Source: an uncultured Bacteroidales bacterium (lineage in GTDB: Bacteria > Bacteroidota > Bacteroidia > Bacteroidales > P3). Taken from it: a stretch of DNA of 64,000 nt. The notes beneath the pieces were generated by a model. That model was given only the letters and a program-made list of their open reading frames with translations, ran no database searches and was not told where the DNA came from. Below are positions 616-55,640 of this stretch, in pieces. The position numbers were made by a program, and so were the translations under genes. The stretch lies in the NCBI GenBank assembly GCA_900316235.1, contig ONCC01000010.1, forward strand, positions 1 through 64,000, in the 5' to 3' direction. Numbering within the stretch: position 1 is the stretch's first letter; the number at the start of each line of letters is the position of its first letter.

Positions 616-710
616 CGTTATGGTGATTTTACAGGAGCAAAGATATAACCCATAGTTTGTCTTTGAGTGTTAAAAAATCATAAAATATACATTGGCGATA
701 GTGTTATTTC

Positions 711-738
711 ATTTTTCTGGGTTATTATATAGGTAGAG
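711..738 (+). promoter_or_regulatory. Candidate promoter/operator of sigma cassette 1
   Basis: The sequence before the sigma gene has a T run ending in TGG, then TTATATAGGTAGAG. A very similar arrangement (T run, TTGG, then AATATAGTGTAAAG) lies before the second sigma gene at 51129-51156. The usual TAnnTTTG box is not evident here. Recognition by the encoded sigma factor itself is an inference. Confidence 0.4.
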
Positions 739-748
739 ACGCACAATA

Positions 749-1252
749 ATGATGGCTCAGAAGGACAGGAACCGATACGACGACTTCGACGCGCTGGTGG
801 CACGCCACCGGAAGTTGATTCGTGGCCTCTGCTGGTGGAAGGCCGGCGGACAGGCGTGGCTCATGTCCGAACTGATGCAGGAGGTGACAACGCAGTTGTG
901 GCGCTACCGCCACAAGCTGCGCCCCGATGCCACCCCCGGCGAGGAACGTGAGTGGGTTCGGTTCCACTGCCGCAGTGTCTTTGCCCACAGCATACGCAAA
1001 GGGGAGCGTGAGGTGGAGGTGGTTCCGCTGGAGGAAGCCGCGCTGGTGGCCTCCGACGAAGGAAGTCATGCCGAGCATATCGACCGGCTGGCCTCCAATC
1101 TCACCCAGCAGGAGCACCGTGTGCTGGAACTCATTCTCGACGACTATACCGACGGTGAGATTGCACTCTTGCTGCACATTGGCGAGAATGAGACGGGGCG
1201 TCTCCATGCCCAAGTGATTGATAAGATGAAACGTAATGCCAATAGAATATGA
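749..1252 (+). CDS. Sigma-70 family (ECF-like) RNA polymerase sigma factor, cassette 1
   Basis: This 167-residue protein has the size and layout of an ECF-type sigma factor. An N-terminal region 2-like part (DALVARHRKLIRGLCWW, then LMQEVTTQLWRYRHKL) is followed by a C-terminal region 4 helix-turn-helix (LTQQEHRVLELILDDYTDGE, then a recognition helix ending in KMKRN). Two ATG codons (749 and 752) are possible starts. The stop overlaps the start of the next gene (ATGA), so the two are translationally coupled. It heads a cassette of sigma factor, small membrane protein and periplasmic protein followed by giant T9SS proteins, and that order recurs at 51172. The family is fairly clear; the target promoters are unknown. 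Confidence 0.82.
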   Translation: MMAQKDRNRYDDFDALVARHRKLIRGLCWWKAGGQAWLMSELMQEVTTQLWRYRHKLRPDATPGEEREWVRFHCRSVFAHSIRKGEREVEVVPLEEAALVASDEGSHAEHIDRLASNLTQQEHRVLELILDDYTDGEIALLLHIGENETGRLHAQVIDKMKRNANRI

Positions 1253-1578
1253 ACGAAAAAGATATAATAAGACTCCTTGAGGCAGAGCAAGCCCGCCGAC
1301 GCAGGGCCGACGCCGAGCATGTGCGGCAGCTGTCGCGTGGACTGGCAGGCGATGCGGAAGGCTTCTGCTCGCATCGCCGGCTGGTGCTGCGCACTGCCGC
1401 CATGGTATTGATTATCTTGCTGCCCGGAGTTTACGCCCTGCTGCTGCCCCAGCGGGTGGACGACCGTCATGTGCTCTGCAACCAGCAGGGCGGGGAAATG
1501 CTGGTGCTCAACCGCGCCTGCAGCGCCTTGGGCACATGCAACGACCCGAATGTGGTAAAATTTAAAATGGAAAGATAA
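1249..1578 (+). CDS. Small single-pass membrane protein, putative anti-sigma factor, cassette 1
   Basis: This 109-residue protein has an Arg/Glu-rich N-terminal part of about 45 residues (LLEAEQARRRRADAEHVRQL), one hydrophobic segment near residues 47-68 (VLRTAAMVLIILLPGVYALL) and a short outer tail with three cysteines. A basic cytoplasmic part, one helix and a short periplasmic part, encoded directly behind and overlapping a sigma factor, is the usual layout of membrane anti-sigma factors. No conserved anti-sigma domain is recognised, so the role comes from context. The matching protein of cassette 2 is 98 residues with the same topology but little sequence identity. Confidence 0.65.
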   Translation: MNEKDIIRLLEAEQARRRRADAEHVRQLSRGLAGDAEGFCSHRRLVLRTAAMVLIILLPGVYALLLPQRVDDRHVLCNQQGGEMLVLNRACSALGTCNDPNVVKFKMER

Positions 1579-1590
1579 CAAAAATAGACG

Positions 1591-2148
1591 ATGAAGCGCA
1601 ACGCGATCATATTTATGGGTATCTTGCTACTGCTGTTGGCGGCGGTGACAGCATGGAGAATGCGTCCCGAGCCGGTGGAAGGCAGTGAGCTGTACCAGCG
1701 GTGCAAGGACGTACCCGGTGTGCGCGTGGGCTTCATCAAGGACTTCCCGATTAACGACACAATCACCTGCGACGTCACTACCTTCGAGGCGTTGACCGAC
1801 GAAGGCTGGGAGTGGATGCTGGACAGCTTGGGAGTGAGGAGTACGGCTGAGATGGATGCCTTCTTCGACTCCATCTCTCTCGCATCGGGAATGTCTGAGG
1901 AGGATTGCGCCAATACAATTGACTTATGGCAGAGCAAGCGCTTCCACCCCGAGGTGCAGGGAGACTCGAATGTGTTGGGCAACAGTGTGGACTGCAACCT
2001 GGCCTCGCCCCACTACCGCTGGTTGGCGGTATACCATGCAACTTCAGACGAAGAATTGGATGCAATCATCAACTTCCATATAAAATATCAGATGGAGCAT
2101 TCGATGACCATGATGCCGACAAAGGACAAAACAATAAAACAACAATAA
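1591..2148 (+). CDS. Membrane-anchored periplasmic protein of the sigma cassette, copy 1
   Basis: The protein has 185 residues, an N-terminal signal or anchor helix (MKRNAIIFMGILLLLLAAV) and a soluble domain. The segment around residues 35-65 (LYQRCKDVPGVRVGFIKDFP, then NDT) clearly matches the third protein of cassette 2 at 51952 (LYLQYKDIPGIKATYLKDYP, then DDT). I do not recognise a named family. The conserved position third in both cassettes suggests a sensor or accessory part of the sigma/anti-sigma pair; this is an inference. It starts 12 bases after the previous gene and ends 34 bases before the first giant T9SS protein, so the locus is probably one operon. Confidence 0.7.
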   Translation: MKRNAIIFMGILLLLLAAVTAWRMRPEPVEGSELYQRCKDVPGVRVGFIKDFPINDTITCDVTTFEALTDEGWEWMLDSLGVRSTAEMDAFFDSISLASGMSEEDCANTIDLWQSKRFHPEVQGDSNVLGNSVDCNLASPHYRWLAVYHATSDEELDAIINFHIKYQMEHSMTMMPTKDKTIKQQ

Positions 2149-2182
2149 CTGCGTTATAAAATATAAAGTAAGTATAATTACA

Positions 2183-3412
2183 ATGAAAAAAGTATTATTT
2201 GCATTTGTAGCCCTGATGGGGTTGATGTATCATCAAGCGCAGGCACAATGCCTGGATACGGTGCCGTGGGGTACCTCGATAGCCTTCGATAACAGTTGCT
2301 GGACGGTGGCGCCGGGCAGCAACTGGGAGGGAGAGTACAGCCAGTACGTCAGCGACTTCGACACCACGGCCGACCACCGGCTGTTGTCGCCATGGATAGA
2401 GATACCGGCGACGGCGGCTATCGACTCGGTGGTGGTTCGCTATGGTACAACGGTAGTATGCAAAGCCGACCTCAGCGTGTGCGTCACCACCGACGGGGTG
2501 ACCTACGACACCCTGCGGCGCGAGCTGAGAGATGCAGCAGAGGCCTCCTACAAGGGCGACACCCTCTATCTGGGTGCCTATGCCGGGCAGATGATAAGGA
2601 TTGTGTTCTGCCGCCACGGGCTCAGCAGCGACTACAACTATTTTACCGACGGATGCCCGAACCCGGATGTGAGCTGGAACCTCATCGTGGGCGGCATCCG
2701 ATTACTATCGCTCAATCCGCCGCAGGCATGGGCCACCGTGACCGAGAGGTCGTTTGTAGGCGAGCCGACGGTGTGGCGGGCTGGCCTCAACATGGGTTCG
2801 CACACAGGGCTTACCTACACTTGGCACAGCACGCTGATGGGGCAGACCCTGACGGGCGACAGCGTGACGATGACCTACAGCGCAGCAGGCGTGGACACCG
2901 TGACCATGGTGGCCAGCAACGCCTATGGTAGCGACACAGTGGTGAACACCATCCAGGTGTACGACTGCCAGGGTGTCATCACCGCACACCCCTGGATAGT
3001 GAACTTCGAGACCGAATACGACTGCTGGCGCAGCATCGGCGCTGGCAGATGGAACAGGAGCGGGAACAGCATCACAGCCTATAATGACGGTGACAAGATC
3101 TTCACCTCGCCGGCCGTGGTGCTGCCTGCCGACAGTACCGGTTTGCGCCTCTATTGGAAAGCCAAGAACAATGCCTGGAGCGGCTCCGTCACCTACCAGG
3201 TGTTGGTTACCACCACCGACCGCTTCGACATCGGCAGCTACGACACCCTCTTCTCCGCGTCGCAGAACACTACGCAGGCGCAACGTAGCGTATCGCTGGC
3301 CGACTATGCAGGCGACACGGTCTATATCGCTTTCCGCCAGAAAGACCAGAGCTCTCGCAACATACAAATCAGCGATGTGAGGATGTACAACGCCCGCAGG
3401 GCGACAGCGTGA
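2183..3412 (+). CDS. Giant T9SS surface protein A, N-terminal part (frame broken near 3409)
   Basis: The 409-residue frame begins with a signal peptide (MKKVLFAFVALMGLMYHQAQA). It then has a jelly-roll unit of the 'choice-of-anchor J' kind (about 25-170), a PKD-like unit (about 175-258, TYTWHSTLMG to VASNAYGSDTVV) and a second anchor-J-like unit with YAGDTVYIAFRQ. It stops at TGA 3410-3412 with no sorting domain. The next frame (+2 shift) continues with the second half of a PKD-like unit, so the two frames were once one gene of about 2,555 residues. At the join, the roughly 35 residues that precede WHSSLMD in the other units are missing, so a small deletion as well as a shift is likely. The product as it stands would be secreted to the periplasm but not displayed. 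Confidence 0.8.
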   Translation: MKKVLFAFVALMGLMYHQAQAQCLDTVPWGTSIAFDNSCWTVAPGSNWEGEYSQYVSDFDTTADHRLLSPWIEIPATAAIDSVVVRYGTTVVCKADLSVCVTTDGVTYDTLRRELRDAAEASYKGDTLYLGAYAGQMIRIVFCRHGLSSDYNYFTDGCPNPDVSWNLIVGGIRLLSLNPPQAWATVTERSFVGEPTVWRAGLNMGSHTGLTYTWHSTLMGQTLTGDSVTMTYSAAGVDTVTMVASNAYGSDTVVNTIQVYDCQGVITAHPWIVNFETEYDCWRSIGAGRWNRSGNSITAYNDGDKIFTSPAVVLPADSTGLRLYWKAKNNAWSGSVTYQVLVTTTDRFDIGSYDTLFSASQNTTQAQRSVSLADYAGDTVYIAFRQKDQSSRNIQISDVRMYNARRATA

Positions 3413-6400
3413 GCTACAGCTGGTACAGTGCCCTCCTCGACACCTCTATCACTACTATCGATTCTATGGTTTCTATCGTCTATCCCTTCCCTGGCAGCGA
3501 GACACTGACGGCCACGGCCAGCAACGCCCATGGCACGCTCACGCTGGAGAAGAGCCTCGGAGTGTACGGATGCGACACTATCAGTGTTTTCCCTTGGAGC
3601 GAGGGTTTTGTGGAGACCGGCAGCGTCGCAAGCTACAACGCCTGCTGGGAGATTGTCGGCTACTACCGTTTGCCCGACAACTACGGTTATGGCTTCGACG
3701 AGGAGGACGGCAGCTCGTCTGGCAGCATCAACAGGCATGACTTCATGAGGTCCTCCACGCGGTGGGACTACATGCTCACGCCGCCCATCGCGGTGCCCGC
3801 TGTATTGGAGAAGAACCTCTCGCTGTGGGTGGAGCATTTCTACAGCCTGATGGCTATCGTGGAGACCGAAGAGGGTAATGCCGACACCGTCTATTCCCTC
3901 GACAGCAGGGAGATGACCATGCGCCGCCGTCCCATCTCGCTGCTGCCCTATGCCGGACAGACTATTCGCGTGCGGCTGCTGAACAACAGCAGCCACGCTT
4001 CCTACGCCGAGTCGCTGGTGGACCGCATACGCGTGGACTACGACACGGTGCCTGTGGTTGTCCTCTCGGCACAGGAGAAGACCACCACCGACAGCGCCAC
4101 CCTCTTTGTCGCCCAGCAGCTGCGTGGTTTCAACACCAGCCTCAGCTACAGCTGGCAGTCGCAGGTGGGTGGCACCTTCACCACCAACGCCGCCGGCGAC
4201 AGCGCCTGGGTGACCTACGGCGCCGGCATCACGGGACTGAACGACACCGTCAGCGTAACGGTCACCAACAGTTACTGCAGTTACACCACTCGCCGCGCCA
4301 TACGGATTATCGATTGTCTGCCCGCCGACACCCTGCCGTGGGTGGAGACCTTCACCGAAGGCATTGCCTGCTGGTACAAACCCGAGGGCAGCAACTGGGC
4401 AGCCTCTACATACTATGGCTACGACCCCAAGGCCATGGCCTCGGGTCGTATCACCGACTCGGTGCCGCAATGGATTATCTCCAAGGCCGTCGACCTGCCG
4501 GCCGACACCGCCCTCTGCGTGCGTCTCCTCTGGGACGTGAGCACCTCGGGCATCTACCCGGTGAACTACAGCGTCTGGGTGACCACCGCTGCCGACTATA
4601 CCGACACCTCCAACTATACTCTCCTCTACCTCGACACCGCCTACCACTCGCAATATCGCGCTTTCGACCGCCTCAGCACCTCGCTGGCGGCCTATGCCGG
4701 ACAGACCATCCATGTGGCCTTCCGCAACGCCAAATATCTCGGTAACTCGACCACGCTGTATATCGACAACGTCACTGTCCGCACCACGGCCCTGCCAGTG
4801 GTGAGCTTGGAGGCTTCGTCCATGGTGGACAGTCATGAGCCGGTGGCATATAGCGCCACCCTCACCGAAGGGTCGCCGAACGGCATGACGGTCACATGGC
4901 ACTCCTCGCTGATGGATACGACCTGGGTCGACTCAACTTTCAATTTTCAACTTTCAACTTTCAATTTGACCTATACCCTTGGTGGTAGAGATACCATTAC
5001 CGTCACCGCCTCGAATATCTATGGTTCCTCCTCCGCTACCGCAGTGGTCCTTGTCACCAACTGCAGCCCCATCGCCACCCTGCCTTACGAGGAGACCTTC
5101 AATGACGTGTACCCTCTACCCTACAACTACTCGTCGGGTGGATATGTTCCCAACTGCTGGCACCGCTACTGGGAGGGCAGCACCAGCTATGAACCGCATG
5201 TCATCAACAGCTATTATCAGAGCGCCACAAATATCAACACATACGTGCAGAGCAACAACGCGCTGGTGATGCTGGCGGGAACCGACAGCGGCTATGACAG
5301 TGTCGCCCTTGTCGAAACCCCGGTTTTCGATGTGCCGCTGGCGGGCAAGCAGCTCTCCTTCTACTATATGTTTGAAGCGGCGGTGCGTGGTGAGCTCACG
5401 GTGGGTTACATGCAGAATGGTGATTTCGTGGGCTTCGCCCAGGTGGAGCCGTCGACTACCGGCCGTACCAGATATGTGCGATTGGACAGCTTGCCCTCCG
5501 ATGTCAACCGGATAGCCTTCCGGTGGAAATGCAATGCCTATTGGTATGGTGCAATCCTCGACGACATCCGTGTCGGCGAGCCCGACAGTGTGCCCATGAT
5601 AGCTATTGTACCCAACTATTGGACGGGTTATCTGGGCGACACCACCACCATCACTGCCCAATTCCAGAACGGTCTCACCGATAGTCTCAGCTACCACTGG
5701 CACTCTTCGCTGATGGATACCATTATAGTCACCACAGCCCCTCTCCTCACTATAGTCTACGACATCGAGGGCTACGACACCCTCACCCTTGCCGCTATCA
5801 ATGCTTACGGCAGCGACACCGCTGTAGCCTATGTCAATGTGTTCAGTCACCCCCTGCCGCAGGTCACCCTCTCGGCTCCCGCCGAAATCCCCCTGGGCGA
5901 CAGTGTGACCCTCGCCGCTACTCTCAATAACTGCTCCCGCAACGCTCTCTCCCTCACTCTCCACTCCTCCCTCCTCGACAGTACTATAACTCTTAACTCT
6001 AATCTCTTAACTCTTAACTACTCCCATTCGGGAGTCGACACCCTCACCCTCATTGCCTCCAACGCCTATGGCGCCGACACCGTTCTCGCCATCGTGCGTG
6101 TCTACGACTGCGGCAATGTGGCTGTGCCTTACTTTATGGACTTCGAGGATGTGACCGCCACCAACTACAATGTCGCCGGCCAGTTGCCCCTCTGCTGGAA
6201 TCGCACCTGGAACGGCAGCAACACCGCTTTCGCTCCCCATGTAATCCCCGTCGGAGGCTATCCCTATTTGAGCAACTTGCCCAGCAAATCTCTTCTGATG
6301 TTGGCTGGCAACGCCTCCGGCTACAGCAACCAAGCCGAAGTCGTCCTGCCGCGCTTCGCCGACAGCCTCCAGCACCTCTCCTTCGCCTTCGACTACCGCT

Positions 6401-9400
6401 TTGAGGCCTCTTCGTGGGGCGTTCTTTCTGTGGGTTACTATGACACCACGGGCACATTCGTCACCGTCAGGAATCTCTCGCCCTACGCCGGCGCCTATCG
6501 TCGCGACACCGTCGTCTTCTCTTCCGTCCCCCTGCTCGATGCACAGATAGCGATGCGCTGGACCAACAGCAACTCATACTATGCTCTTGCTATCGACAAC
6601 ATCCATGTCTTTGTCGACAACAATATCCCAGCACCCGCTGGACTCACGGCTGACAACATCACAGCCTCCTGCGCCACCCTCCGTTGGAACGCGGTGACAG
6701 GCGCTACCGCTTACCACCTCATCCTCCCTGGCATCGTCGACACCCTCTTGGTCGACACCGTCCTCAGCGTCTGCGGATTGGACGAGGACAGCGACTACGG
6801 CTTCGGTGTCTACGCCCATGTGGGCGACGAGGTGGGCCACTTCTCCGGCCTCCACCCATTCCACACCCTCCTCTACTGCATGCCCCTCGCCTCCCTCAGT
6901 GCCAATGTGGACGGCATCGTCCGCTGGCAGTACGATACCACCGGTGAGGCCATGGGTACCGGAGTGGCACTCGAGATTGCCGACGTAACCAACGGCGCCA
7001 TGTGGGCCGACACCGTGCTGGGCGACAGCCTCGTCTATCCCTTCGCCATCGGCCACCGCTATAGCCTCACCGCCCGCACCCTCTGCGGCAACACCGAGGC
7101 CCATACTACCCTCACCATCCCCCTCCAGATACCCGCCAGCGTCTGCGCTGAATCCGCGGGTACCAGCACCACCACCGACGAGCGCTTCATGGATAACTTC
7201 TGGGAACATAACTACAGCCAAATCATCTACCCCGCCTCGTTTGCCGCGGGCATCGACACCCTCTTCGGCATAGCCCTGCGTGTGTCGCAGTTCAGCCAGC
7301 CCTTCGCCGATACGGCAAACTACAACTACGACATATTCATAGGACAGACCGACTCGGCCACCCTTTCGGCGCCGCTCACTTCCGACAGCCTCAGCCAGGT
7401 GGCCTTCAACAAGCGCTTCACCATCCGCTCGGCCGGCTGGATTGAAATTCCCTTCGACAGCGTCTACCCCTGCAACCCCACGGGCAACCTCATCGTTACC
7501 TTGGTGGAACGTACCAGTAACGCCTACAGTGGCCGCCACTATGGCGTCCATGCAGATGCGACGTGCACCCACTTCGTGCAGTCGACAGATAACCTTTACT
7601 ACACCAACCCCTCCACCCTCAACTTCGATTGGGAAGTCACCACCGATATTCCCGACATCCGTCTGCTGGGCGGCTGCAGCAGCAGTCTCTGCCTGGCACC
7701 GGTGGCAGCCATCTCCGCTGTCGACACCCACCATGTTGAGCTACAATGGGTGGCACGTGGCTCCGAAGGCCTCTGGCAGGTGGAATACCGCCCCGCTGGC
7801 CAAACGGCTTGGACGGTGGCTGACACCACCAGCGCCAACAGCTACACCGTCGGTGGTCTCCATGCAATGACCACCTACGAGTTCCGCGTGGCCTCCATCT
7901 GCGACGGCGGCCTGCAGTATGGCTCCACCCTCACAGCCACCACCCCCTGTGGCGAAATCTCGCTGCCCTATCACATCGACTTCCGTAACAACGAAATCCC
8001 CTGCTGGACCATCCATACCGGAGTTTCCCACAGTTCCTCCTACGGACTCAATATGTATTCTGGCGAATGGGCCATCTCTCCCTTGGTGGACGACAGCATC
8101 GCCCGTCTCTATGCCACCATCACCACCTATGGCGGCAGCTCCTCTTCCTACCCCGAGAGCTACGCCGTGGGTATCTGCAACGCCGACGGCAGCAACCCCG
8201 TGTGGGTCGACACCATTCTCCTCTCCACCCAGTACGGCAACCACCAGCACACCGTCTACTTCAACAACTATAGTGGCATGGGCGACCACATTATCGTCAA
8301 AATCGTATCGGGCCTCCTCGACCTGAGGGAGTTCGCTCTCGATTATGTCGACTTCTGCATCCCCGCGCAGAACGTGGAGGCCACCGCAATTACCGACTCG
8401 TCGGCGGTGCTGCAATGGACCGCCAACGCTAGCGGCCACACCTTCGCCGTCTACCTCGACAATGTGTTGCAAACTGTCACCTCTGCCACCACCTACACTT
8501 TCACGGGTCTCGCTCCCCGTACCCGCTATCTGGCCGCAGTGCGCGAGATCTGTGGCGCCGGCGACACCGCCGCTGCCGCTACCCGCTATTTCCGCACCCA
8601 GTGCACCCCCATCACCGACCTGCCCTATTTCGAGGAGTTCGACTACAGCAGCGACCTCTATGGTGACACCATTGGCCTGCCTCCTTGCTGGGATTCCATC
8701 GGCTATTCCCACATCTCCTTCAGCAGCTTCTCGGGCGGTGCCCTCACCGTGATGACTTTCTATAGTTTCGAGGACTACACGGGTCCCTACACCAGCTACC
8801 TCGCCACACCCTTACTCAACATCCCCTCGCAGGGTGCACGCATTCGCTTCAAAGGGCAGACCGGCCACGACGATGTCGTCACCGCCGGCATCATGACCGA
8901 TCCCACGGATGCCTCCACCTTCATCCCGATGGCCACCATCACCTACAACAACCGTGGACTCGCCTGGTATGAGTTCACCACCGAGGGGCTCGACAGCCTC
9001 AACTCGCAATTCGCCGTCGCCTTCCGCTGGGCCTCCGAGGGTTCGGGCTCGCTCGACTCGCTCTTTGTCACCGCCCTCCCTGAGGGTCACACCGTAACGG
9101 TGACGGCCAATGAGGAAGGGGTGTGTGAGACCTACGGCAGCGGCATCTATGCCGACGGCAGCAGCGTCGTGATTGGCTACCGCTTGCTCGACACCCTGCC
9201 TCAGGGTGGGCATTGGGAGTTCCTTGGCTGGAGCGATGGCGCAAGCGGCAACCCCCGCACCCTTGTCGTTACCTCCGATACCGCCGTGGTGGCCCTCTTC
9301 GAGTGGGTGACCGACCCGGTGACGGACACCATGTGGCGCACCGTTACCGTCCGCCTGGTCGACCTCGCCACCGGCAACACCATTGAGGAAAGCGATGTGG

Positions 9401-9849
9401 TGTATGTCGAAGGTGCCGGTCGATATATGGACAGCACCATGGTGACTCTCACGGCACACTACGCCGACAACCCCCTGTTCTACGGCTGGGTGACCACTGC
9501 CGACGACACCATCAGCAGCAACCCCTTCCGCTTCATTGTCACCTGTGACACCCTTATCACCGCTGTCTACGCACCGTTGCCCGTCGGCATCGACGAAGTG
9601 GAAAGTTCAAAGTGGAAAGTGGAAATCTTCCCGAATCCGGCCACCACCGAGGTTACCATCCTCACTCAAGCAATCAAGCAATCAGACAATCAAGCAATTA
9701 CCATCCTTGACCTCCACGGTCGCGTGGTCTACACTCAAGCAATCAGACACTCAAGCAATCAAGCAATCACCATCGACATCAGCTCCTTGCCGCGAGGCGT
9801 CTACTATGTGCGCATCGGCAGTGTGGTTAAGAAACTTGTTATCCAGTAG
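3409..9849 (+). CDS. Giant T9SS surface protein A, main part with C-terminal sorting domain
   Basis: The 2,146-residue frame continues protein A. Its nominal GTG at 3409 lies in the middle of a PKD-like unit and has no signal peptide, so it is not a natural start. Alternating anchor-J-like units (LPW.E.F, C.W, YAGQTI, DN..V) and PKD-like units (YHWHSSLMDT, ASNAYGSDT) fill residues 1-1070. FN3-like units follow near 1074, 1427 and 1654, and an InlB-repeat-like unit near 1895 (WEFLGWSDGASGNPRTLVV). The end is a T9SS type A sorting domain from about 2074 (IFPNPATTEVTI, LDLHGRVV, LPRGVYYVRI, KKLVIQ). The domain make-up suggests adhesion or glycan binding at the cell surface. Short nucleotide repeat stacks sit in frame at 4933, 5988, 9599, 9664 and 9732. 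Confidence 0.85.
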   Translation: MSYSWYSALLDTSITTIDSMVSIVYPFPGSETLTATASNAHGTLTLEKSLGVYGCDTISVFPWSEGFVETGSVASYNACWEIVGYYRLPDNYGYGFDEEDGSSSGSINRHDFMRSSTRWDYMLTPPIAVPAVLEKNLSLWVEHFYSLMAIVETEEGNADTVYSLDSREMTMRRRPISLLPYAGQTIRVRLLNNSSHASYAESLVDRIRVDYDTVPVVVLSAQEKTTTDSATLFVAQQLRGFNTSLSYSWQSQVGGTFTTNAAGDSAWVTYGAGITGLNDTVSVTVTNSYCSYTTRRAIRIIDCLPADTLPWVETFTEGIACWYKPEGSNWAASTYYGYDPKAMASGRITDSVPQWIISKAVDLPADTALCVRLLWDVSTSGIYPVNYSVWVTTAADYTDTSNYTLLYLDTAYHSQYRAFDRLSTSLAAYAGQTIHVAFRNAKYLGNSTTLYIDNVTVRTTALPVVSLEASSMVDSHEPVAYSATLTEGSPNGMTVTWHSSLMDTTWVDSTFNFQLSTFNLTYTLGGRDTITVTASNIYGSSSATAVVLVTNCSPIATLPYEETFNDVYPLPYNYSSGGYVPNCWHRYWEGSTSYEPHVINSYYQSATNINTYVQSNNALVMLAGTDSGYDSVALVETPVFDVPLAGKQLSFYYMFEAAVRGELTVGYMQNGDFVGFAQVEPSTTGRTRYVRLDSLPSDVNRIAFRWKCNAYWYGAILDDIRVGEPDSVPMIAIVPNYWTGYLGDTTTITAQFQNGLTDSLSYHWHSSLMDTIIVTTAPLLTIVYDIEGYDTLTLAAINAYGSDTAVAYVNVFSHPLPQVTLSAPAEIPLGDSVTLAATLNNCSRNALSLTLHSSLLDSTITLNSNLLTLNYSHSGVDTLTLIASNAYGADTVLAIVRVYDCGNVAVPYFMDFEDVTATNYNVAGQLPLCWNRTWNGSNTAFAPHVIPVGGYPYLSNLPSKSLLMLAGNASGYSNQAEVVLPRFADSLQHLSFAFDYRFEASSWGVLSVGYYDTTGTFVTVRNLSPYAGAYRRDTVVFSSVPLLDAQIAMRWTNSNSYYALAIDNIHVFVDNNIPAPAGLTADNITASCATLRWNAVTGATAYHLILPGIVDTLLVDTVLSVCGLDEDSDYGFGVYAHVGDEVGHFSGLHPFHTLLYCMPLASLSANVDGIVRWQYDTTGEAMGTGVALEIADVTNGAMWADTVLGDSLVYPFAIGHRYSLTARTLCGNTEAHTTLTIPLQIPASVCAESAGTSTTTDERFMDNFWEHNYSQIIYPASFAAGIDTLFGIALRVSQFSQPFADTANYNYDIFIGQTDSATLSAPLTSDSLSQVAFNKRFTIRSAGWIEIPFDSVYPCNPTGNLIVTLVERTSNAYSGRHYGVHADATCTHFVQSTDNLYYTNPSTLNFDWEVTTDIPDIRLLGGCSSSLCLAPVAAISAVDTHHVELQWVARGSEGLWQVEYRPAGQTAWTVADTTSANSYTVGGLHAMTTYEFRVASICDGGLQYGSTLTATTPCGEISLPYHIDFRNNEIPCWTIHTGVSHSSSYGLNMYSGEWAISPLVDDSIARLYATITTYGGSSSSYPESYAVGICNADGSNPVWVDTILLSTQYGNHQHTVYFNNYSGMGDHIIVKIVSGLLDLREFALDYVDFCIPAQNVEATAITDSSAVLQWTANASGHTFAVYLDNVLQTVTSATTYTFTGLAPRTRYLAAVREICGAGDTAAAATRYFRTQCTPITDLPYFEEFDYSSDLYGDTIGLPPCWDSIGYSHISFSSFSGGALTVMTFYSFEDYTGPYTSYLATPLLNIPSQGARIRFKGQTGHDDVVTAGIMTDPTDASTFIPMATITYNNRGLAWYEFTTEGLDSLNSQFAVAFRWASEGSGSLDSLFVTALPEGHTVTVTANEEGVCETYGSGIYADGSSVVIGYRLLDTLPQGGHWEFLGWSDGASGNPRTLVVTSDTAVVALFEWVTDPVTDTMWRTVTVRLVDLATGNTIEESDVVYVEGAGRYMDSTMVTLTAHYADNPLFYGWVTTADDTISSNPFRFIVTCDTLITAVYAPLPVGIDEVESSKWKVEIFPNPATTEVTILTQAIKQSDNQAITILDLHGRVVYTQAIRHSSNQAITIDISSLPRGVYYVRIGSVVKKLVIQ
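4933..4968. repeat. In-frame CAACTTT/CAATTTT repeat stack
   Basis: Five near-identical 7-nt units of the type TCAACTT/TCAATTT lie inside the protein A gene. They encode STFNFQLSTFN just before a beta strand, where sister PKD-like units have no such sequence. Confidence 0.75.
5988..6020. repeat. In-frame CTTAACT repeat stack
   Basis: Units of the type AACTCTT/AATCTCTT are repeated within the protein A gene and encode ITLNSNLLTLNY. The position is equivalent to that of the stack at 4933, in another PKD-like unit. Confidence 0.7.
9599..9771. repeat. Three in-frame repeat stacks in the sorting domain of protein A
   Basis: Three stacks are present. 9599-9625 has GGAAAGT/TCAAAGT units (SSKWKVE). 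9664-9701 and 9732-9771 have CAAGCAAT/CAGACAAT units (QAIKQSDNQAI and QAIRHSSNQAI). The last two sit in front of strands of the T9SS sorting domain, at the position also occupied in protein B. Confidence 0.75.
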
Positions 9850-9865
9850 AAATGAGAAAGGAATA

Positions 9866-12800
9866 ATGAGAAACATGAAAAAGATACTTTTCAGCCTTTT
9901 GTTGCTGGTGGCGATGGTACCCCTTCGTGCTAGCCAGCTCACCGTGGCCGACGGCACGCAGCAGAACATGTATGTCCCCATGCAGACGATGAATGCGCCG
10001 ATGCACACGCAGATGATCTATCCTTCGTCGATGCTGACGCCGCTCGTGGGGCAGTATATCACCGAGCTGCGCTTCTACAGCACCTCGTCGAACTTCCAGT
10101 GGCCGGTGAACTTCACCGTCCGTATGGGAACCTCCCCCTACAGTAGCTTCAGCGGCAACAGCCTGATTGCCACTCCCGAGCTGACGCAGGTGCTGGTGGG
10201 GCCTTTTCAATCTGTCGCTGGGGGCTATGTGCTGGTGCTCGACCAGCCCTACCTCTACAATGGTGGCGACCTGCTGTTGGACATCACGATGGGCGGTTTC
10301 AGCAGCTCGACCTATTTTTGGTACTACGGCATCACGCGGAGCAACGCTTCGTGCTATTTTGTAGACAGCTACACCCCCTACACGCAGCGGCAGAGTTTCC
10401 TGCCCAAGCTGACTTTCACCTACGGCAGCACCATTTGTGGCCGCCCGACGGCGTTGACCCTCGACAGCGTGGGTGGCAACATGGCGACTCTCCACTGGAA
10501 TGCGGCAACCAACACGACGGGTTATTTCGTGACCCTCGACGGGGAGGACTATCCCCTGCAGACAGACACGAGCATTAGCCTTAGCGGCCTTGTGTCGAAC
10601 CGGGTGTACACCGTGAGTGTGAGCTCCATCTGCACCTCGGGCGATACGCTGGTGTCGCAATCGTTAGACTTCCTCACCGTCGATACCTCCACGGCCTTGT
10701 GGCTACCTTACTTCTGTGACTTCGAGGCTCCCCAACCCAACGGGCTTCCCACCTGGTGGCAGCGCACCGACTCGTGCACTACCTATGCGGGGGTGCGCCC
10801 AGCGGTGATAGAGGCCTCGGACTCTTACGGCTACGAGGGGACACATGTGCTGCGGTTCGGCAACGGCTGCGGTCCCACGGGTTTGATGACGGCTCCGCTG
10901 CCAGCGGCCTCAAGGGAGCTGCACGTGAGTTTCTGGTACATGAGCACCTCCTTCGATGAGGAACCCATCAAAGTAGGCCTTGTGGACACCGCCGGAGTGT
11001 TCCATCTGGCCAGACAGTTTGCGGTGGGGGAGGACGACGACTACTACGAATGGCATTTGGCCGACTTCTATACCGACACGATGAACATCGCGGGACCTGT
11101 ACGGCTGGCCTTCCGGTATGAGGCGACGTATGTTTTCTCCATTGACAACCTAAGCATCGAGCGGGTGCCCTACTGCCCGCGGCCGCTGGCCGCCACGGTC
11201 GATAGCATCACCGCCACCACTGCAAGTGCGCACCTCACCCCCGCCGACAGTGGGGCTACCATGATCCTGAGCCTTAACGGTAGGCAAAGGATGACCACCA
11301 CCGACACCGTGGTCTCCCTCTTTGGCCTCGTGCCCTCGCAGCACTATACACTCTCGGTGCGCACCCTCTCTCCTTTGGGCGACACCTCGCAAGCCCTCAA
11401 TACCGAGTTCCGCACCCTCTGCGACAGCGTGATGCGCTTACCCTGGAGCGAGGGTTTCGACGACTTGGCCATCGGTGCCACACACCCCTGCCTGACGGTC
11501 ACCGAACAATCGCCGCGCAGCAGCTACGACCCGGAGTACCCGGTTGTGAGCGGACCTGGGGGCTATGGTACAGGAACCCACAGCGGCAGTGCTATGCTCA
11601 AGGTGGGTCAAGGCGACCAACAGGTGATTTATATAGCCACCCCCATCATCGCCACCCCCGCCAATACCCTGCACGTCGACTTCTGGTATATGCCCAAAGG
11701 CTATTTCACTGCCGGATACTTTCAGGCGGGCTTCCAGACGTCGCCTTCCGACACCGCCTCGTTCACGCCCTTCTACTCGTCGCCCAGGCTCAACAGCAGC
11801 GGAGAGTTTGTGTGGAAACATGTTGAGATATACACCGACACGCTCTCCACGACGTTGCCCGACACCGTGTGCTTTGTGTTTCGGGTGAAGACGGCTGGGT
11901 ACCTCTACATCGACGACATTGAGATTGGCTCTACCTTCAACTGTCCGCAACCGATAGATGTCCGCATGCGCAACGTTACGTCGGTTAGTGCCGAGTTGGC
12001 ATGGGATGCCAGCAGCGAGGGAGGACAATACCAGGTGCTGCTCGACGGAGCAGTGGTGGCCTCTTCGGTGTCGAATACACACTATTCGATTACCGGCCTC
12101 ACCCCGCAGCAGAACTACACTGCCGCCGTGCGCGCGGTGTGCAGCGACGGCTCATTGGGTGACTTGCATGAAGTGGACTTCACCACGCCTTGTGTGGCCA
12201 CAGGATTGCCCATCGAGGAGGACTTCGAGACCCTAGCCCTCGGCGAGACCCTTCCTGCCTGCTGGACGGCGGTGCTCAATAGCAGCAACTATCCCCGTGT
12301 GGCGCAGAGGGCCACTGATGCCCATAGCGGCACTGGGGTGCTCGATTTTTGGGGCTTCGACGGCGAACAGAGTTTGGCACAAACGCCGCGTTTCGCGTTC
12401 CCGGAGAGTGGTCTTCATATCCGCTTCTGGGAGAGCCATTATTACCGCGATTCGGCCATCGTCGTGGGACTGATGACCGACCTGTCGGACCTCTCGACAA
12501 TGGTGCCGTTGTGGGTCTTCAACGGGGCGGACCAGTGGAGCAGCTCCTCGTGGAGCGAACACGAGTTTTATATCGACAGCCTGCCGGGTGCTGACACCGT
12601 CTGTGTGGCATTCTTCAGCATCAACGGTGCTACGCTCGATGTCGACGACCTCCTTGTTGAAGCGATGCCCACGTGTCTCCGACCCTCGCAACCCACGGTG
12701 ACCGACTTGAGCTACGACAGTATCACCCTCGGTTGGAGCGGCATGGGCGACGCCTACCAGATATGCTACGGTACCGACAGCATCCCCTCAGCCACTCAAG

Positions 12801-14035
12801 CAATCATATACTCAAGCAATCAGACAATCACCCTCCACGCCCTCAGCGGCAACACCACCTATCACGCCTGGGTGCGTTCGCTCTGTGGCGCCACCGACAC
12901 CTCGGAATGGCTGTATATCGGCAGCTTCACCACCGACTGCACCCCTGCACCGTTGCCTTACTACGAGCCGTTCGAAGGCTATATGAACACCGCTGAAGCC
13001 TCGTGCTGGAGCCGCGCCGACGGGTGGGTGGACAGCCTCGCTTACCCTGGCTATGCACTCGACTATCGCTATGGCTCTATGTGGAACCTCTACAACGTCT
13101 TCGGAAGCCTCGCCGCGATGCGGGTGACGGTGGATTTCGACAATGAGCATGAGTGGCTCATCTCGCCGTTGATAGCAGTGAACGACTCAGCCAAACTCTC
13201 GTTCGACATCAGGATGACTCGCGGAATGGGCGAAAGTTCCCCCGACAGTCTCTCCGATGAAACCCGCTTCGGCGTAGCCTTTACGGCCGACGACGGCACC
13301 TCGTGGCAGGTGCTTGCCGACTGGGGCGGTGCTACCGGTGGCAACCTCATGCAGAGCATGGATTCGCTGAACTGGCACCCCACCATAACGCTGCCGACTG
13401 AAGCTATGGGCAATATACGCCTCGGATTCTTCGTGGAAACCGGACTAAATACGGATAACGTATACTTGCATCTCGACAATGTCAAGGTGGAGCTTGACAG
13501 CGCGCGTATTCCGCCGGTGCTCGACACGTTCACTGTCTACATCAACCGTGTCTGCCGCAGCTGCGGGGAGAATATCCCTGCCGACTATGTTGTCGGCGAA
13601 GGCCGCTATGAGGAAGGGGATACAGTGAGCCTCGAGGGACTTGTGCAGGGAGAAGGCGTCAGCTTCGACTTTTGGATTCTCGAAACAGGCGACACCATCT
13701 TTGACAATCCCTACAGCTTCGTTATCCATTCCGACCGTATCATCACCGCCTACTTTAGCCAGAATGTCGGCATCGACGATGTTGAAGGCAGTGACTTCCT
13801 TATTTATCCTAATCCTGCCACTACGACGGTGACGATTGTGCTTGATGAGTCAATGGATGCGAACACCTCGCTTCAGGTTCTCGACCAGCAGGGCCGCTGT
13901 GTCTTCACTCAAGCAATCAAACAATCAAGCAATCAGACAATCACCATCGACGTCAGCCGATGGGCCGCCGGCACCTACTTCGTCCGCATCGTTAACGACA
14001 GTGGCGCCATCGTCAAGAAACTTATACTGCGTTAA
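9866..14035 (+). CDS. Giant T9SS surface protein B
   Basis: This 1,389-residue protein starts at ATG 9866, 16 bases after protein A, with AGAAAGGA as ribosome-binding site; a second ATG lies at 9875. The signal peptide is about residues 1-24 (KKILFSLLLLVAMVPLRA). After an N-terminal jelly-roll part, FN3-like units (near 191, 437, 692, 936) alternate with anchor-J-like units (near 280, 525, 781, 1030; LPWSEGFDDL, LPYYEPFEG). An InlB-like unit near 1225 and a T9SS type A sorting domain from about 1312 (IYPNPATTTVTIV, WAAGTYFVRI, KKLILR) follow. It is probably exported through T9SS and attached to the surface together with protein A. Repeat stacks of the CAAGCAAT type sit in frame at 12794 and 13907. 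Confidence 0.88.
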   Translation: MRNMKKILFSLLLLVAMVPLRASQLTVADGTQQNMYVPMQTMNAPMHTQMIYPSSMLTPLVGQYITELRFYSTSSNFQWPVNFTVRMGTSPYSSFSGNSLIATPELTQVLVGPFQSVAGGYVLVLDQPYLYNGGDLLLDITMGGFSSSTYFWYYGITRSNASCYFVDSYTPYTQRQSFLPKLTFTYGSTICGRPTALTLDSVGGNMATLHWNAATNTTGYFVTLDGEDYPLQTDTSISLSGLVSNRVYTVSVSSICTSGDTLVSQSLDFLTVDTSTALWLPYFCDFEAPQPNGLPTWWQRTDSCTTYAGVRPAVIEASDSYGYEGTHVLRFGNGCGPTGLMTAPLPAASRELHVSFWYMSTSFDEEPIKVGLVDTAGVFHLARQFAVGEDDDYYEWHLADFYTDTMNIAGPVRLAFRYEATYVFSIDNLSIERVPYCPRPLAATVDSITATTASAHLTPADSGATMILSLNGRQRMTTTDTVVSLFGLVPSQHYTLSVRTLSPLGDTSQALNTEFRTLCDSVMRLPWSEGFDDLAIGATHPCLTVTEQSPRSSYDPEYPVVSGPGGYGTGTHSGSAMLKVGQGDQQVIYIATPIIATPANTLHVDFWYMPKGYFTAGYFQAGFQTSPSDTASFTPFYSSPRLNSSGEFVWKHVEIYTDTLSTTLPDTVCFVFRVKTAGYLYIDDIEIGSTFNCPQPIDVRMRNVTSVSAELAWDASSEGGQYQVLLDGAVVASSVSNTHYSITGLTPQQNYTAAVRAVCSDGSLGDLHEVDFTTPCVATGLPIEEDFETLALGETLPACWTAVLNSSNYPRVAQRATDAHSGTGVLDFWGFDGEQSLAQTPRFAFPESGLHIRFWESHYYRDSAIVVGLMTDLSDLSTMVPLWVFNGADQWSSSSWSEHEFYIDSLPGADTVCVAFFSINGATLDVDDLLVEAMPTCLRPSQPTVTDLSYDSITLGWSGMGDAYQICYGTDSIPSATQAIIYSSNQTITLHALSGNTTYHAWVRSLCGATDTSEWLYIGSFTTDCTPAPLPYYEPFEGYMNTAEASCWSRADGWVDSLAYPGYALDYRYGSMWNLYNVFGSLAAMRVTVDFDNEHEWLISPLIAVNDSAKLSFDIRMTRGMGESSPDSLSDETRFGVAFTADDGTSWQVLADWGGATGGNLMQSMDSLNWHPTITLPTEAMGNIRLGFFVETGLNTDNVYLHLDNVKVELDSARIPPVLDTFTVYINRVCRSCGENIPADYVVGEGRYEEGDTVSLEGLVQGEGVSFDFWILETGDTIFDNPYSFVIHSDRIITAYFSQNVGIDDVEGSDFLIYPNPATTTVTIVLDESMDANTSLQVLDQQGRCVFTQAIKQSSNQTITIDVSRWAAGTYFVRIVNDSGAIVKKLILR
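12794..12830. repeat. In-frame CAAGCAAT repeat stack in protein B
   Basis: The stack encodes TQAIIYSSNQTIT, using the same nucleotide unit as at 9664 and 9732 but in an FN3-like unit rather than the sorting domain. Confidence 0.7.
13907..13944. repeat. In-frame CAAGCAAT repeat stack in the sorting domain of protein B
   Basis: The stack encodes TQAIKQSSNQTIT directly before the IDVSRWAAGTYFVRI strand, the same structural position as the 9732 stack of protein A. Confidence 0.75.
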
Positions 14036-50286: not shown

Positions 50287-51127
50287 GCAGACCATTGATT
50301 TCGAGCAGGTGGAGGCTATGGGCATCTCGCGTCAGGCCTACGAAGAGGTGCTCGACATCATCGGGCGTCAGCCTACTATCGACGAGTTGTCGACACTTCT
50401 GGCCATGTGGGAAAGCAATGGCAGGCAGCAGAGCCTCTATGGCTGGCTACGCGGTCAGCACCATGTGGTGGAGCGCAACGACTACCTTTACTCCGGCGAC
50501 GCTGGCCACCGCGCCATTCGCGAGCCGAAGGTAAAGGAATGCCTGCAAATCGCCAAGGAAATTTGTCGAAGTATTCCGAGAAATCAGGGTAGTCAGAATA
50601 ATCTGAGTGGTCAGACGGGACTTTTACTCTATATGGTGGGTAATGTGAGCAGCGAGTTTGCTGACTCGGAGTATGCGCGGCGCTGCCTGCATCTGGTCAG
50701 TGAACCGATGGCAGTCGGTGGCCACGACGAAGACTGCCAATACATAGAGATGATTCTCTCGGCCTTGAAGGATGGCGCCTTGATAGAGGCGCATGCTGCG
50801 GTGGGGCAGGGTGGACTCTTCTGCTCGCTGCTGCATTTCACCAGCCCTATGGGATATGATATATTGGCTCCGCGCGAGGTGCGGCTAGATGCTTTCCTTT
50901 TTGGCGAAGAGTTGGGTCGCTATCTGGTGGCGCTGTCCGAGGCAAAGGACGATGAGTTTCTCCTCAAGATGGATGATGCACGCCTCAACTGCTGCTTCCT
51001 GGGACGTACTACGAAGAACCGCGTGGTAGTCGACGGCTTCGACTTCGGCCCCGTCAGCCGATACGTGCAGCCCCCAATTAAAAAAAAGCAATTTTCTTTT
51101 ACCCCCCCCTCCCCCGTAATATTTTGA
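50279..51127 (+). CDS. Short PurL-like protein (N-terminal linker plus AIRS C-terminal-like domain)
   Basis: The 282-residue protein resembles parts of FGAM synthase (PurL). Residues 12-60 (MGISRQAYEEVLDIIGRQPT, ELSTLLAMWESN) look like the PurL linker that normally runs into W.EHCSYKSS. Residues 155-260 resemble the AIRS C-terminal domain (ALIEAHAAVGQGGLFCSLLH, LDAFLFGEELGRYLVALSEA, CCFLGRTTKNRVVVDG). The middle of PurL, including the ATP-binding part and glutaminase, is absent, so FGAM synthase activity is not expected. After residue 263 the homologous end (…SRYV) runs into 19 low-complexity residues (QPPIKKKQFSFTPPSPVIF), encoded through A8 and C8 runs. A second copy of the last 72 conserved codons lies at 55641-55862. 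Confidence 0.7.
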   Translation: MSEQTIDFEQVEAMGISRQAYEEVLDIIGRQPTIDELSTLLAMWESNGRQQSLYGWLRGQHHVVERNDYLYSGDAGHRAIREPKVKECLQIAKEICRSIPRNQGSQNNLSGQTGLLLYMVGNVSSEFADSEYARRCLHLVSEPMAVGGHDEDCQYIEMILSALKDGALIEAHAAVGQGGLFCSLLHFTSPMGYDILAPREVRLDAFLFGEELGRYLVALSEAKDDEFLLKMDDARLNCCFLGRTTKNRVVVDGFDFGPVSRYVQPPIKKKQFSFTPPSPVIF

Positions 51128-51128
51128 C

Positions 51129-51156
51129 CTTTTTTTGGCTCTAATATAGTGTAAAG
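51129..51156 (+). promoter_or_regulatory. Candidate promoter/operator of sigma cassette 2
   Basis: CTTTTTTTGG followed by CTCTAATATAGTGTAAAG resembles the 711-738 sequence in front of cassette 1 (T run, GG, then TATAG, GTA, AG). No TAnnTTTG box is present. Confidence 0.4.
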
Positions 51157-51171: not shown

Positions 51172-51675
51172 ATGTCCGAGGCCGAGAACAAGAAAATGAT
51201 TCGCTATTTGGCGATATTGCGAGTGTTCGACAAGCACATTGCCAACTTCTGCTATGCCCATAGCAATAGCTCTGCCGACGCCCAGGACCTCTCGCAGGAA
51301 ATCCTAGCGCTTGTCTGGGAGAATCTGGATGGGCTGAAAGCCGACACCGACGCGCCCGCCAGGGTCAACAGATGGCTCAACAAGGTGATGTTCACCGCCT
51401 TTGTGCGCCATCTGCGCCAGCGGCCCCGAATCACGACCGTCCCCCTCAGCGATGCTGTCGACGTGGCCGACAGCCCCGAGGTGGACCCTGAAGAAGTGGA
51501 AGACCACCTGTCCAGACTCGGCGACAATGACCGCCACCTGCTGAAGATGCGCATAGAAGGCTACACCAATGCCGAAATAGCCCGACTCTCGCGACGGACC
51601 GAAAACAGCGTGGCACAACAATTTTACCGGATATTCATCAAACTGAGAAAGAAAAGAAATGGAACAAACGATTGA
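51172..51675 (+). CDS. Sigma-70 family (ECF-like) RNA polymerase sigma factor, cassette 2
   Basis: The 167-residue protein is a clear ECF-type sigma factor. Region 2 covers LRVFDKHIANFCYAHSNSSA, DAQDLSQEILALVWENLDGL and VNRWLNKVMFTAFVRHLRQR; region 4 covers LGDNDRHLLKMRIEGYTNAE and IARLSRRTENSVAQQFYRIF. It has the same length as the cassette 1 factor but is only distantly similar. The start has no strong ribosome-binding site. Its 3' end overlaps the next gene by 17 bases. Confidence 0.87.
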   Translation: MSEAENKKMIRYLAILRVFDKHIANFCYAHSNSSADAQDLSQEILALVWENLDGLKADTDAPARVNRWLNKVMFTAFVRHLRQRPRITTVPLSDAVDVADSPEVDPEEVEDHLSRLGDNDRHLLKMRIEGYTNAEIARLSRRTENSVAQQFYRIFIKLRKKRNGTND

Positions 51676-51955
51676 TAAATCCCCCCTGAGCCCGCAGCAG
51701 GAAAGCCTCCTGCTGAGAAAGGCCTGTCACGACGCAGGCGAGGCTCTCTGCCGCGACATCGCCCGCGGCTACCGCCGTGGCAGTCGCCGTGTCGACCTCC
51801 GTCATTATGCCGTCACCCTCCTTGTAGGCCTCTGCCTTGTGGTGCTGACGGCCAGGATTACGGCGTGGTCCTTCCCCTACACCATGAGCGGCGGCGACCG
51901 CCAGGAACGCCTCGCAGCCTTCACTCTTACCCAGAAAATACTCATGCAGTCATGA
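51659..51955 (+). CDS. Small single-pass membrane protein, putative anti-sigma factor, cassette 2
   Basis: The 98-residue protein has a basic N-terminal part of about 50 residues (QQESLLLRKACHDAGEALCR, IARGYRRGSRRVDLRHY), one hydrophobic segment near residues 49-68 (AVTLLVGLCLVVLTARITAW) and a short outer tail. Position and topology match the 1249-1578 gene of cassette 1. It overlaps the sigma gene upstream and, by four bases (ATGA), the periplasmic protein downstream. The anti-sigma role is inferred from this arrangement. Confidence 0.65.
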   Translation: MEQTIDKSPLSPQQESLLLRKACHDAGEALCRDIARGYRRGSRRVDLRHYAVTLLVGLCLVVLTARITAWSFPYTMSGGDRQERLAAFTLTQKILMQS

Positions 51956-52410
51956 AACGCCGTTGGACCATCACCTTGCTGCTCCTGCCTGTCGCCGCAC
52001 TGACCGCGGCGTTTGTGACGTACTGCTCCCATACCGTTCCCCCGAGCCAGTGCGATGCCCTCTATCTGCAGTACAAGGATATCCCTGGCATCAAGGCCAC
52101 CTACCTCAAGGACTATCCCCTCGACGACACCACCACCATCGCCGTCACCCTCCTCCAGGCACAGGACAGCAATGTTTGGAAAGAGTTGTATTTTCAAATA
52201 CTCAGTCTAGATAACCCCGACGAACGCAATCCCACTAATATTGCATTTAAGCTTTTCCCCTCAAAAAATCAAACCCAATCAATTGGCAACGAACTATCAG
52301 GCAAGGACCTTGCCGTCTTCAGTAAAGATAATCTTACAATTTCCTTCTTCCATTTAGAAACCATGCAGCAATACCTTAAAATATTCGACTTTTATTTCAC
52401 TTTGTTATAG
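51952..52410 (+). CDS. Membrane-anchored periplasmic protein of the sigma cassette, copy 2
   Basis: The 152-residue protein has an N-terminal anchor (KRRWTITLLLLPVAALTAAF) and a soluble part whose segment LYLQYKDIPGIKATYLKDYP matches copy 1 at 1591. The second half is more AT-rich in codon choice than its neighbours and diverges strongly from copy 1, though both end in a similar aromatic helix. The ATGA start couples it to the membrane protein gene. A longer start in the same frame at 51865 would run through that gene and is not preferred. Confidence 0.7.
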   Translation: MKRRWTITLLLLPVAALTAAFVTYCSHTVPPSQCDALYLQYKDIPGIKATYLKDYPLDDTTTIAVTLLQAQDSNVWKELYFQILSLDNPDERNPTNIAFKLFPSKNQTQSIGNELSGKDLAVFSKDNLTISFFHLETMQQYLKIFDFYFTLL

Positions 52411-52462
52411 ATTACTTATTGTTGAAAATTATATTATTAAAAGAAAAATCAGAACTTGCGCC

Positions 52463-52834
52463 ATGATGGCAATCCTTTCACTGTCCATGGCTGGCTGCCA
52501 AAAGGACAACCTGATGTTTGACAAAACCGATGTCAATTCAAACATTCCTATGCGTTACTCTGTATCAGGAACCGTTTACACTACTTTCCTTTCTGATGAA
52601 AGCGAGTTGGATTCGTTCATTGACCGTGTCTTTGCCATAGTCAATGATGGCTATACTGTTACCATTATAGGAAATGGACAGAGGGGCATTAAAGAAAAAA
52701 AAGAAATCACGTTCACCACCACAATCGAATCCGAAGCAAAAGCGTGGGCCGCATCTATGACGTTGTTGGGATATAGTGTACAGGTTAACTATAACAAATC
52801 CACAGGCGTTTACACATGCATTGCAACACTATAA
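52463..52834 (+). CDS. Small lipoprotein of unknown function
   Basis: From ATG 52463 the protein has 123 residues and a short lipoprotein signal (MMAILSLSMAGC). The frame is open further upstream and reads KRKIRTCA just before the ATG, which would complete a normal basic n-region, but no usual start codon is present there. Either a rare start (ATT near 52433) is used or the true 5' end was lost. The mature part (SVSGTVYTTFLSDESELDSF, VNDGYTVTIIGN, VQVNYNKSTGVYTCIATL) has no recognised family. It lies 52 bases after cassette 2. Confidence 0.6.
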   Translation: MMAILSLSMAGCQKDNLMFDKTDVNSNIPMRYSVSGTVYTTFLSDESELDSFIDRVFAIVNDGYTVTIIGNGQRGIKEKKEITFTTTIESEAKAWAASMTLLGYSVQVNYNKSTGVYTCIATL

Positions 52835-55545: not shown

Positions 55546-55640
55546 GGTGAATCATATTAAAGTTGCAACTCTAACCTAAGTCTAACTATTCCCTGACCTG
55601 ACGAGTGCACTTTGACACGAATTAACTCCTACCATGGAGG

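Follow-up and report, generated by a model that had tools for sequence, protein, structure and literature searches.

A multiplied sigma factor, membrane protein and exported protein cassette in an uncultured Bacteroidales genome

The three-gene cassette in the window and across genomes

The DNA analysed here, hereafter the window, is a 64,000-nucleotide stretch of an uncultured Bacteroidales bacterium (contig C26 of a 2.43-Mb draft genome) that carries, twice on its forward strand, an ordered set of genes for a sigma factor, a small membrane protein (the middle protein) and an exported third protein. We refer to this set as the trio. In copy 1, a 167-residue sigma factor of divergent extracytoplasmic function (ECF) type (749..1252) is followed by a predicted antisigma factor of 109 residues (1249..1578), with a cytoplasmic part of ~48 residues, one transmembrane (TM) helix and a periplasmic tail of 42 residues, and then by an N-terminally anchored, predicted periplasmic protein of 185 residues (1591..2148). 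Copy 2 repeats this order with an ECF sigma factor of 167 residues (51172..51675), a predicted antisigma factor of 98 residues (51659..51955; 50 cytoplasmic residues, one TM helix and a 29-residue periplasmic tail) and an N-terminally anchored, predicted periplasmic protein of 152 residues (51952..52410). The first-pass annotation had described two such sets joined by ATGA or longer overlaps. Both sets are present with sigma factors of the same length, and the overlaps hold in copy 2 (17 bp between the sigma and middle genes, ATGA between the middle and third genes) and between the copy 1 sigma and middle genes, whereas the copy 1 third gene follows a 12-bp gap and does not overlap the middle gene.

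The two sigma factors share 24% identity (E 2e-11). Copy 2, like most other copies in the genome, exceeds the TIGR02937 cut-off for ECF sigma factors (49.3 bits against 42.9), whereas copy 1 falls below it and its Sigma70_r2 match (E 0.0026) is under the curated cut-off, so its assignment rests on homology to the other copies, with which it groups in a tree. The shared sequence reported earlier for the third proteins is borne out at 35% identity over 79 residues (E 3e-12), in the N-terminal half only. Pairwise comparison of the two middle proteins gave no detectable similarity (E 0.5), and they are tied to each other solely by position, architecture and profiles. Known-family scans (Pfam/NCBIfam) returned no match for the third and middle proteins or for the F4 accessory protein described below. 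Neither a FecR domain nor a TonB receptor was matched among the scanned trio and adjacent proteins of the window.

Both copies precede cargo genes of the type IX secretion system (T9SS), as the first reading had it. The copy 1 trio is followed after 35 bp by a first giant cargo gene (2183..9849; PKD, choice-of-anchor J, fn3 and Por_Secre_tail domains), split into open reading frames (ORFs) 2183-3412 and 3409-9849, and a second large one (9866..14035; fn3 repeats and Por_Secre_tail, start codon picked by eye), both on the forward strand. After copy 2, two other genes intervene. Downstream on the same strand lie a small lipoprotein of accessory family F4 (52439..52834; the ORF list has an ATG at 52463) and a 351-residue T9SS cargo protein with Por_Secre_tail (54490..55545; PF18962 E 4.9e-9). 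The products ending at 9849, 14035 and 55545 carry the sorting domain PF18962/TIGR04183 above cut-off.

The first-pass count of two copies is correct for the window and an undercount for the genome, which has 14 third-protein genes. A middle membrane protein precedes all 14, and an intact sigma gene precedes 13; in the remaining copy, on C35, just the C-terminal ~40 residues of the sigma factor are left. This C35 locus (L023/L009) is a paralogue of copy 1 with middle, third and giant T9SS genes, its sigma factor lacking the N-terminal two thirds or more, and it may rely on the copy 1 sigma. Within the genus set of the window, 35 of 37 genomes (the window's own among them) have the third-protein family, with between 1 and 14 copies; 24 other Bacteroidales families, each represented by one genome, lack it. 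When 295 genomes of the order were screened, a single additional genus, belonging to another family, proved to have it; there, sigma factor, short membrane protein and third protein are again present and a T9SS gene lies nearby in two of three genomes. The named relatives are uncultured Bacteroidales metagenome-assembled genomes, chiefly from rumen and gut samples.

Linkage was counted over 91 third-protein loci, from the window's own genome and 73 named contigs. The first-pass annotation had suggested a search of Bacteroidales genomes for the ordered trio, and there the families do not occur mostly apart: of the 85 loci with enough sequence, 83 have a sigma gene 5' of the third gene. Spacing is tight, with an ATGA overlap of the middle and third genes in 54 of 77 loci. 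The trio is thus supported as one conserved module, with the predicted architecture of sigma factor, membrane antisigma factor and anchored periplasmic partner.

Several relatives of the trio depart from this architecture. At L061:1926-3295, one sigma gene is followed by two tandem third-like lipoproteins, an arrangement comparable to tandem DUF4252 operons. Sigma factors of the trio clade at L220 (C34:79004) and L224 (C20:12926) have C-terminal extensions, and that of L220 runs on into a TM helix and a periplasmic-type region, a natural sigma-membrane fusion. At L194 (C29:34500-43500), the promoter described below stands before a sigma gene of this clade, which has a multi-TM partner but lacks a third gene; the gene of a T9SS-tagged M1 peptidase lies ~2 kb downstream.

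Downstream of the trios, T9SS genes are enriched, in agreement with the second check that had been suggested. A T9SS gene starts within 3 kb on the same strand in 18 of the relatives' 39 loci, compared with 3 of 101 control genes in those loci (Fisher P 2e-9, which is only indicative because the loci share descent). In the window's own genome this holds for 5 of the 14 trios by a strict count and for 7 when weak or degraded sorting domains are included, against 0.4 expected from 47 T9SS genes. Behind trios without T9SS cargo stands a small lipoprotein gene, a gene for some other lipoprotein or nothing that could be recognised. The F4 small lipoprotein family, about as common downstream as T9SS cargo, lies within 1.5 kb of the third gene in 39 of 79 loci, and all six full-length F4 genes of the genome and one remnant stand directly after trios and only there. 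A fold search with the F4 protein model (pLDDT 81) gave no clear match.

Most trio sigma genes are preceded by an ECF-type promoter pattern. When the DNA in front of 60 non-redundant sigma genes was searched for two-block motifs without supervision, the motif TGT(T/A/C)A(C/G)A - N12-14 - TTGCGTCTAA emerged, with a log-likelihood of 275 versus 111-116 for dinucleotide shuffles. A strict form of it has three matches in the 2.43-Mb genome, and the reversed control has none. Each match lies just 5' of a sigma gene belonging to this clade: C39 has two, both trio promoters, and C29 has one, which was outside the motif training set and lies directly upstream of a same-clade sigma gene that does not belong to a trio. 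Because the strict form is confined to sites just upstream of clade sigma genes, it supports autoregulation at the level of the operon. The trio motif is similar to the CGT-box ECF promoter of T9SS-related genes in Flavobacterium psychrophilum (PMC9723704).

In the window, the candidate autoregulatory promoter of copy 1 reads GTTATTTCA ... GGGTTATTATAT (703..730, forward strand). This footprint is kept in 8 species whose flanking DNA does not align, and its 12-base core GGGTTATTATAT occurs a single time in the 2.4-Mb genome, at 719-730. The candidate of copy 2, CCGTAATA-N13-TTGGCTCTAA (51114..51144, forward strand), is common to relative L095. These variants suggest paralogue-specific promoters, by which sigma specificity would not yet be established.

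Relation to sigma/antisigma/DUF4252 operons

The first-pass annotation had treated the third protein as an arrangement without precedent, a view that does not stand. Sigma/antisigma/DUF4252 trios have the same order across Bacteroidales. Porphyromonas gingivalis has two of them, PG0214-PG0216 and PG0985-PG0987, whose genes appear together in expression tables and change jointly (PMC10101095, PMC10434189). In other Bacteroidales, DUF4252 follows an ECF sigma factor and a membrane protein in 26 of 29 DUF4252 loci, and the trios described here show the same succession of sigma factor, membrane protein and exported third protein. Although such operons are widespread in Bacteroidales, we found no paper that assigns them a function.

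The trio could accordingly be read as a divergent branch of the common Bacteroidota DUF4252 operon, with the same function, amplified in one lineage and mechanistically nothing new. We regard the chances of this reading as evenly balanced; it is compatible with the circuit that we propose below and rivals just its novelty. Beyond the shared gene order and the P. gingivalis sets, which both favour it, the two kinds of operon are alike in having an ECF sigma factor, a one-TM middle protein and an exported third protein whose N-terminal motif is similar, and the strand and helix order of the third proteins is compatible, as judged by eye from sequence. Profile comparison cuts both ways: DUF4252 beats all decoys against the trio third protein and the N-terminal register matches, but the hhalign probability is just 5-13% once signal peptides are removed, and PF14060 (DUF4252) finds no match in the window's own genome at E 10 and none among 73 homologues.

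The sigma factors and middle proteins likewise speak on both sides. In the tree, 26 of 26 DUF4252 sigma factors fall in one bipartition that contains no trio sigma factor (support 0.91), and most trio sigmas belong to another clade, which counts against a simple branch. The C24 copy, however, bridges both kinds, with a LLEKYREGTLNDEER-type antisigma N-terminus (hhalign 96%) and a sigma factor on the DUF4252 side of the tree. The middle protein of DUF4252 operons has a periplasmic domain of ~100 residues, which most trio middle proteins lack, having instead usually a tail of ~28 residues or three TM helices. Scores of DUF4252 sigma upstream regions scanned with the trio motif were close to shuffled background; by eye, similar GTAAC/CGTC elements (TTGTAAC...TCGTC) stand before several DUF4252 sigma genes and lend the shared-branch reading some further weight. 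The trio reaches 14 copies compared with 1-4 for DUF4252, and downstream T9SS and F4 genes are a feature of the trio.

A common origin of both operon types, followed by divergence and amplification, is plausible and unproven; it is our reading, with roughly even chances. Overall, the trio looks like a real, conserved and much-multiplied variant of a three-gene arrangement already present in related bacteria. New here are the ECF-type promoter before trio sigma genes, the conserved tail of the middle protein and the alpha/beta model of the third protein.

A candidate surface signalling circuit

We propose, with moderate confidence, that each trio makes up a cell-surface signalling circuit of its own, an autoregulated sigma/antisigma pair with a CnrX- or RseB-like third component. 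The ECF sigma factor would be held inactive by the short cytoplasmic N-terminal part of the middle protein, whose short C-terminal tail would extend into the periplasm. There it would be bound by the third protein, membrane-anchored and sometimes lipid-anchored or secreted, which would set the sigma factor free in response to a signal from the envelope or surface. Once free, the sigma would drive the operon that encodes it through an ECF promoter dedicated to it, amplifying itself, with read-through to the downstream small lipoprotein and/or T9SS surface protein. Many such circuits would run in parallel in one genome, apparently separated by promoter variants.

The middle protein was surveyed at 77 loci, with TM helices counted by simple hydropathy. 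It comes in builds with one TM helix (38) or with two or three (36), and in both the tail after the last helix usually has 26-30 residues and a hydrophobic end, reaching 42 residues in copy 1 and its orthologues. Across the 29 sequences of the C24 orthogroup, identity is 73% in the last 25 residues, 18% in the middle region and 48% in the N-terminal 45 residues; the linker is long and variable, and the tail has the consensus ...PVVACNTQCSADSVINDIWKFLSA. A CNxxC-like tail is seen again in the other Bacteroidales family. Because the C24 tail is so much better conserved than the linker, it looks like a docking peptide, presumably for the third protein. A redox pairing of tail cysteines with third-protein cysteines was considered and dropped, with no consistent correspondence over 19 clusters.

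Antisigma activity of the middle protein is a prediction from profiles and position. The N-terminal part is profile-linked, via the C24 orthogroup, to the protein in the antisigma position of DUF4252 operons (hhalign 95%, 96%); its module LL.KY..G.TS..EE is clear in that orthogroup, and the window copies are reached through intermediate profiles only. The window copies carry no detected known antisigma domain, which would suit a reading in which the middle protein has no antisigma role, the sigma factor is constitutively active or otherwise controlled, and middle and third proteins are envelope parts of the regulon. We consider this very improbable, since the middle gene adjoins the sigma gene, its product combines a basic cytoplasmic N-terminus with a TM helix, the profile link just described points to an antisigma candidate, and a natural fusion of sigma factor and TM helix exists in the same clade.

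The third protein is usually N-terminally anchored, with a lipobox or cleavable signal in some copies. A model from 73 homologues (pLDDT 88.6, pTM 0.76) predicts, after the anchor, an alpha/beta order of helix-strand-strand-helix-(helix)-strand-strand-strand-helix. Searches of the PDB with this model gave no clear match (best Foldseek E 0.14), and the best VIA Z, 4.8 for DcrB, equals that of unrelated rows. CnrX and RseB are not among the PDB fold matches listed, by which neither is excluded. We infer, tentatively, that the third protein is the sensing part.

Alternatively, the third protein may be an effector or structural envelope protein, with the middle protein alone sensing, either directly or through regulated proteolysis. 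The genome does contain sigma factors with a membrane partner and no third gene, the tail could be a protease recognition site, and third-like genes can stand in tandem, as at L061. We nevertheless hold this reading to be unlikely: the third gene is retained while everything downstream varies, and at most loci it is translationally coupled to the middle gene.

Several findings weigh against the proposed circuit. The motif fit is weak in the window's own copies, and copy 1 fits worse than other copies. C29 and C53 each carry a same-clade sigma gene with a multi-TM partner and no third gene beside it; some of these sigma factors therefore do without the third protein. Protease recognition, the main alternative to docking, might also explain why the tail is conserved, and no fold match in the PDB searches assigns the third protein a known sensor function. 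About half of the copies lack recognisable T9SS cargo, so that the first-pass idea of a module for large surface proteins holds only in part, for the downstream enrichment. Finally, gene order, spacing, topology, tail conservation, the promoter with its restriction to these sigma genes and the downstream enrichment are read from the sequence itself, and antisigma activity, binding of the tail by the third protein, sensing and the separation of copies are predictions.

RseB and CnrX are precedents for third components of sigma/antisigma systems, and CnrYXH of Cupriavidus metallidurans (cobalt/nickel resistance) resembles the trio in having a sigma factor, a small membrane antisigma factor with a short cytoplasmic part and the periplasmic CnrX (PMC4598750). 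Its gene order differs from that of the trio. CnrX is an anchored helical metal sensor, in contrast to the modelled alpha/beta third protein. The rpoE-rseA-rseB system of sigma-E envelope stress shares with the trio a sigma factor, a membrane antisigma factor, a periplasmic protein that binds it and the same gene order, but RseB is soluble and larger, whereas the third protein is usually anchored. By analogy, the trio would work like CnrYXH or rpoE-rseA-rseB and, on present evidence, is a member of neither.

Other systems are alike in organisation or output. FecI-FecR-TonB receptor signalling is likewise a Bacteroidota-style sigma/antisigma control of surface functions, but the window modules have no match to a FecR domain or TonB receptor. 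PorXY-SigP and PorA of P. gingivalis combine an ECF sigma factor and a T9SS C-terminal domain protein in one signalling path (PMC4800418, PMC7712824); there, a two-component system controls the secretion machinery, as opposed to the trio's local cargo operons. Clostridial sigma-I factors of cellulosome genes also have many paralogues per genome, promoter-based specificity and surface enzyme systems as output (PMC6056542). Their sigma class is unrelated to the trio's. In sigma-I systems the sensing module is fused to the antisigma factor RsgI, with no separate third protein. If the trio circuits are insulated from one another, they would resemble these sigma-I circuits by another route.

More tentatively, and with somewhat less than even confidence, we suggest that upwards of twelve autoregulated ECF circuits operate side by side in the genome. 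Every circuit would have a separate anchored periplasmic protein that reads the short C-terminal docking tail of the antisigma factor, a particular promoter variant and surface cargo of its own, giving the cell a FecR- and TonB-independent choice of surface proteins. The lineage is a natural experiment, with as many as 14 paralogues in a genome, a tail that is short and conserved, a promoter that is defined and an output that can be recognised. The trios open concrete tests of the role of the third protein and of the way in which gut Bacteroidales might select T9SS proteins for their surface.

Local changes at the window copies

The first giant T9SS gene of copy 1 has a frameshift at 3395-3409; in relatives L122 and L128 the gene is one uninterrupted frame and ~79 bp longer at this place. 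The first-pass suggestion of on/off (phase) expression was rejected for this cargo, which is broken by a deletion-type frameshift of ~79 bp relative to the two relatives, with no repeat switch or other switch element found there. The frameshift may reflect real gene decay or an assembly error. Downstream of copy 2, the gene at 53128-54468, between the F4 and T9SS genes, has an in-frame stop near 53467.

A ~213-bp sequence stands as a direct repeat on either side of the copy 2 cassette (50851-51063 and 55640-55852; 75.6% identity) and corresponds to the 3' end of an AIRS_C-domain gene that lies upstream (50279-51127). This flanking repeat suggests that copy 2 arrived by insertion or recombination at that gene. 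A general mobility of the cassette was set aside after a direct-repeat scan of 71 loci, in which several hits, judged by position, came from short repeats or from paralogues of sigma or T9SS genes. Copy 2 was the sole locus recognised in that scan with the duplicated 3' end of a neighbouring gene on both sides.

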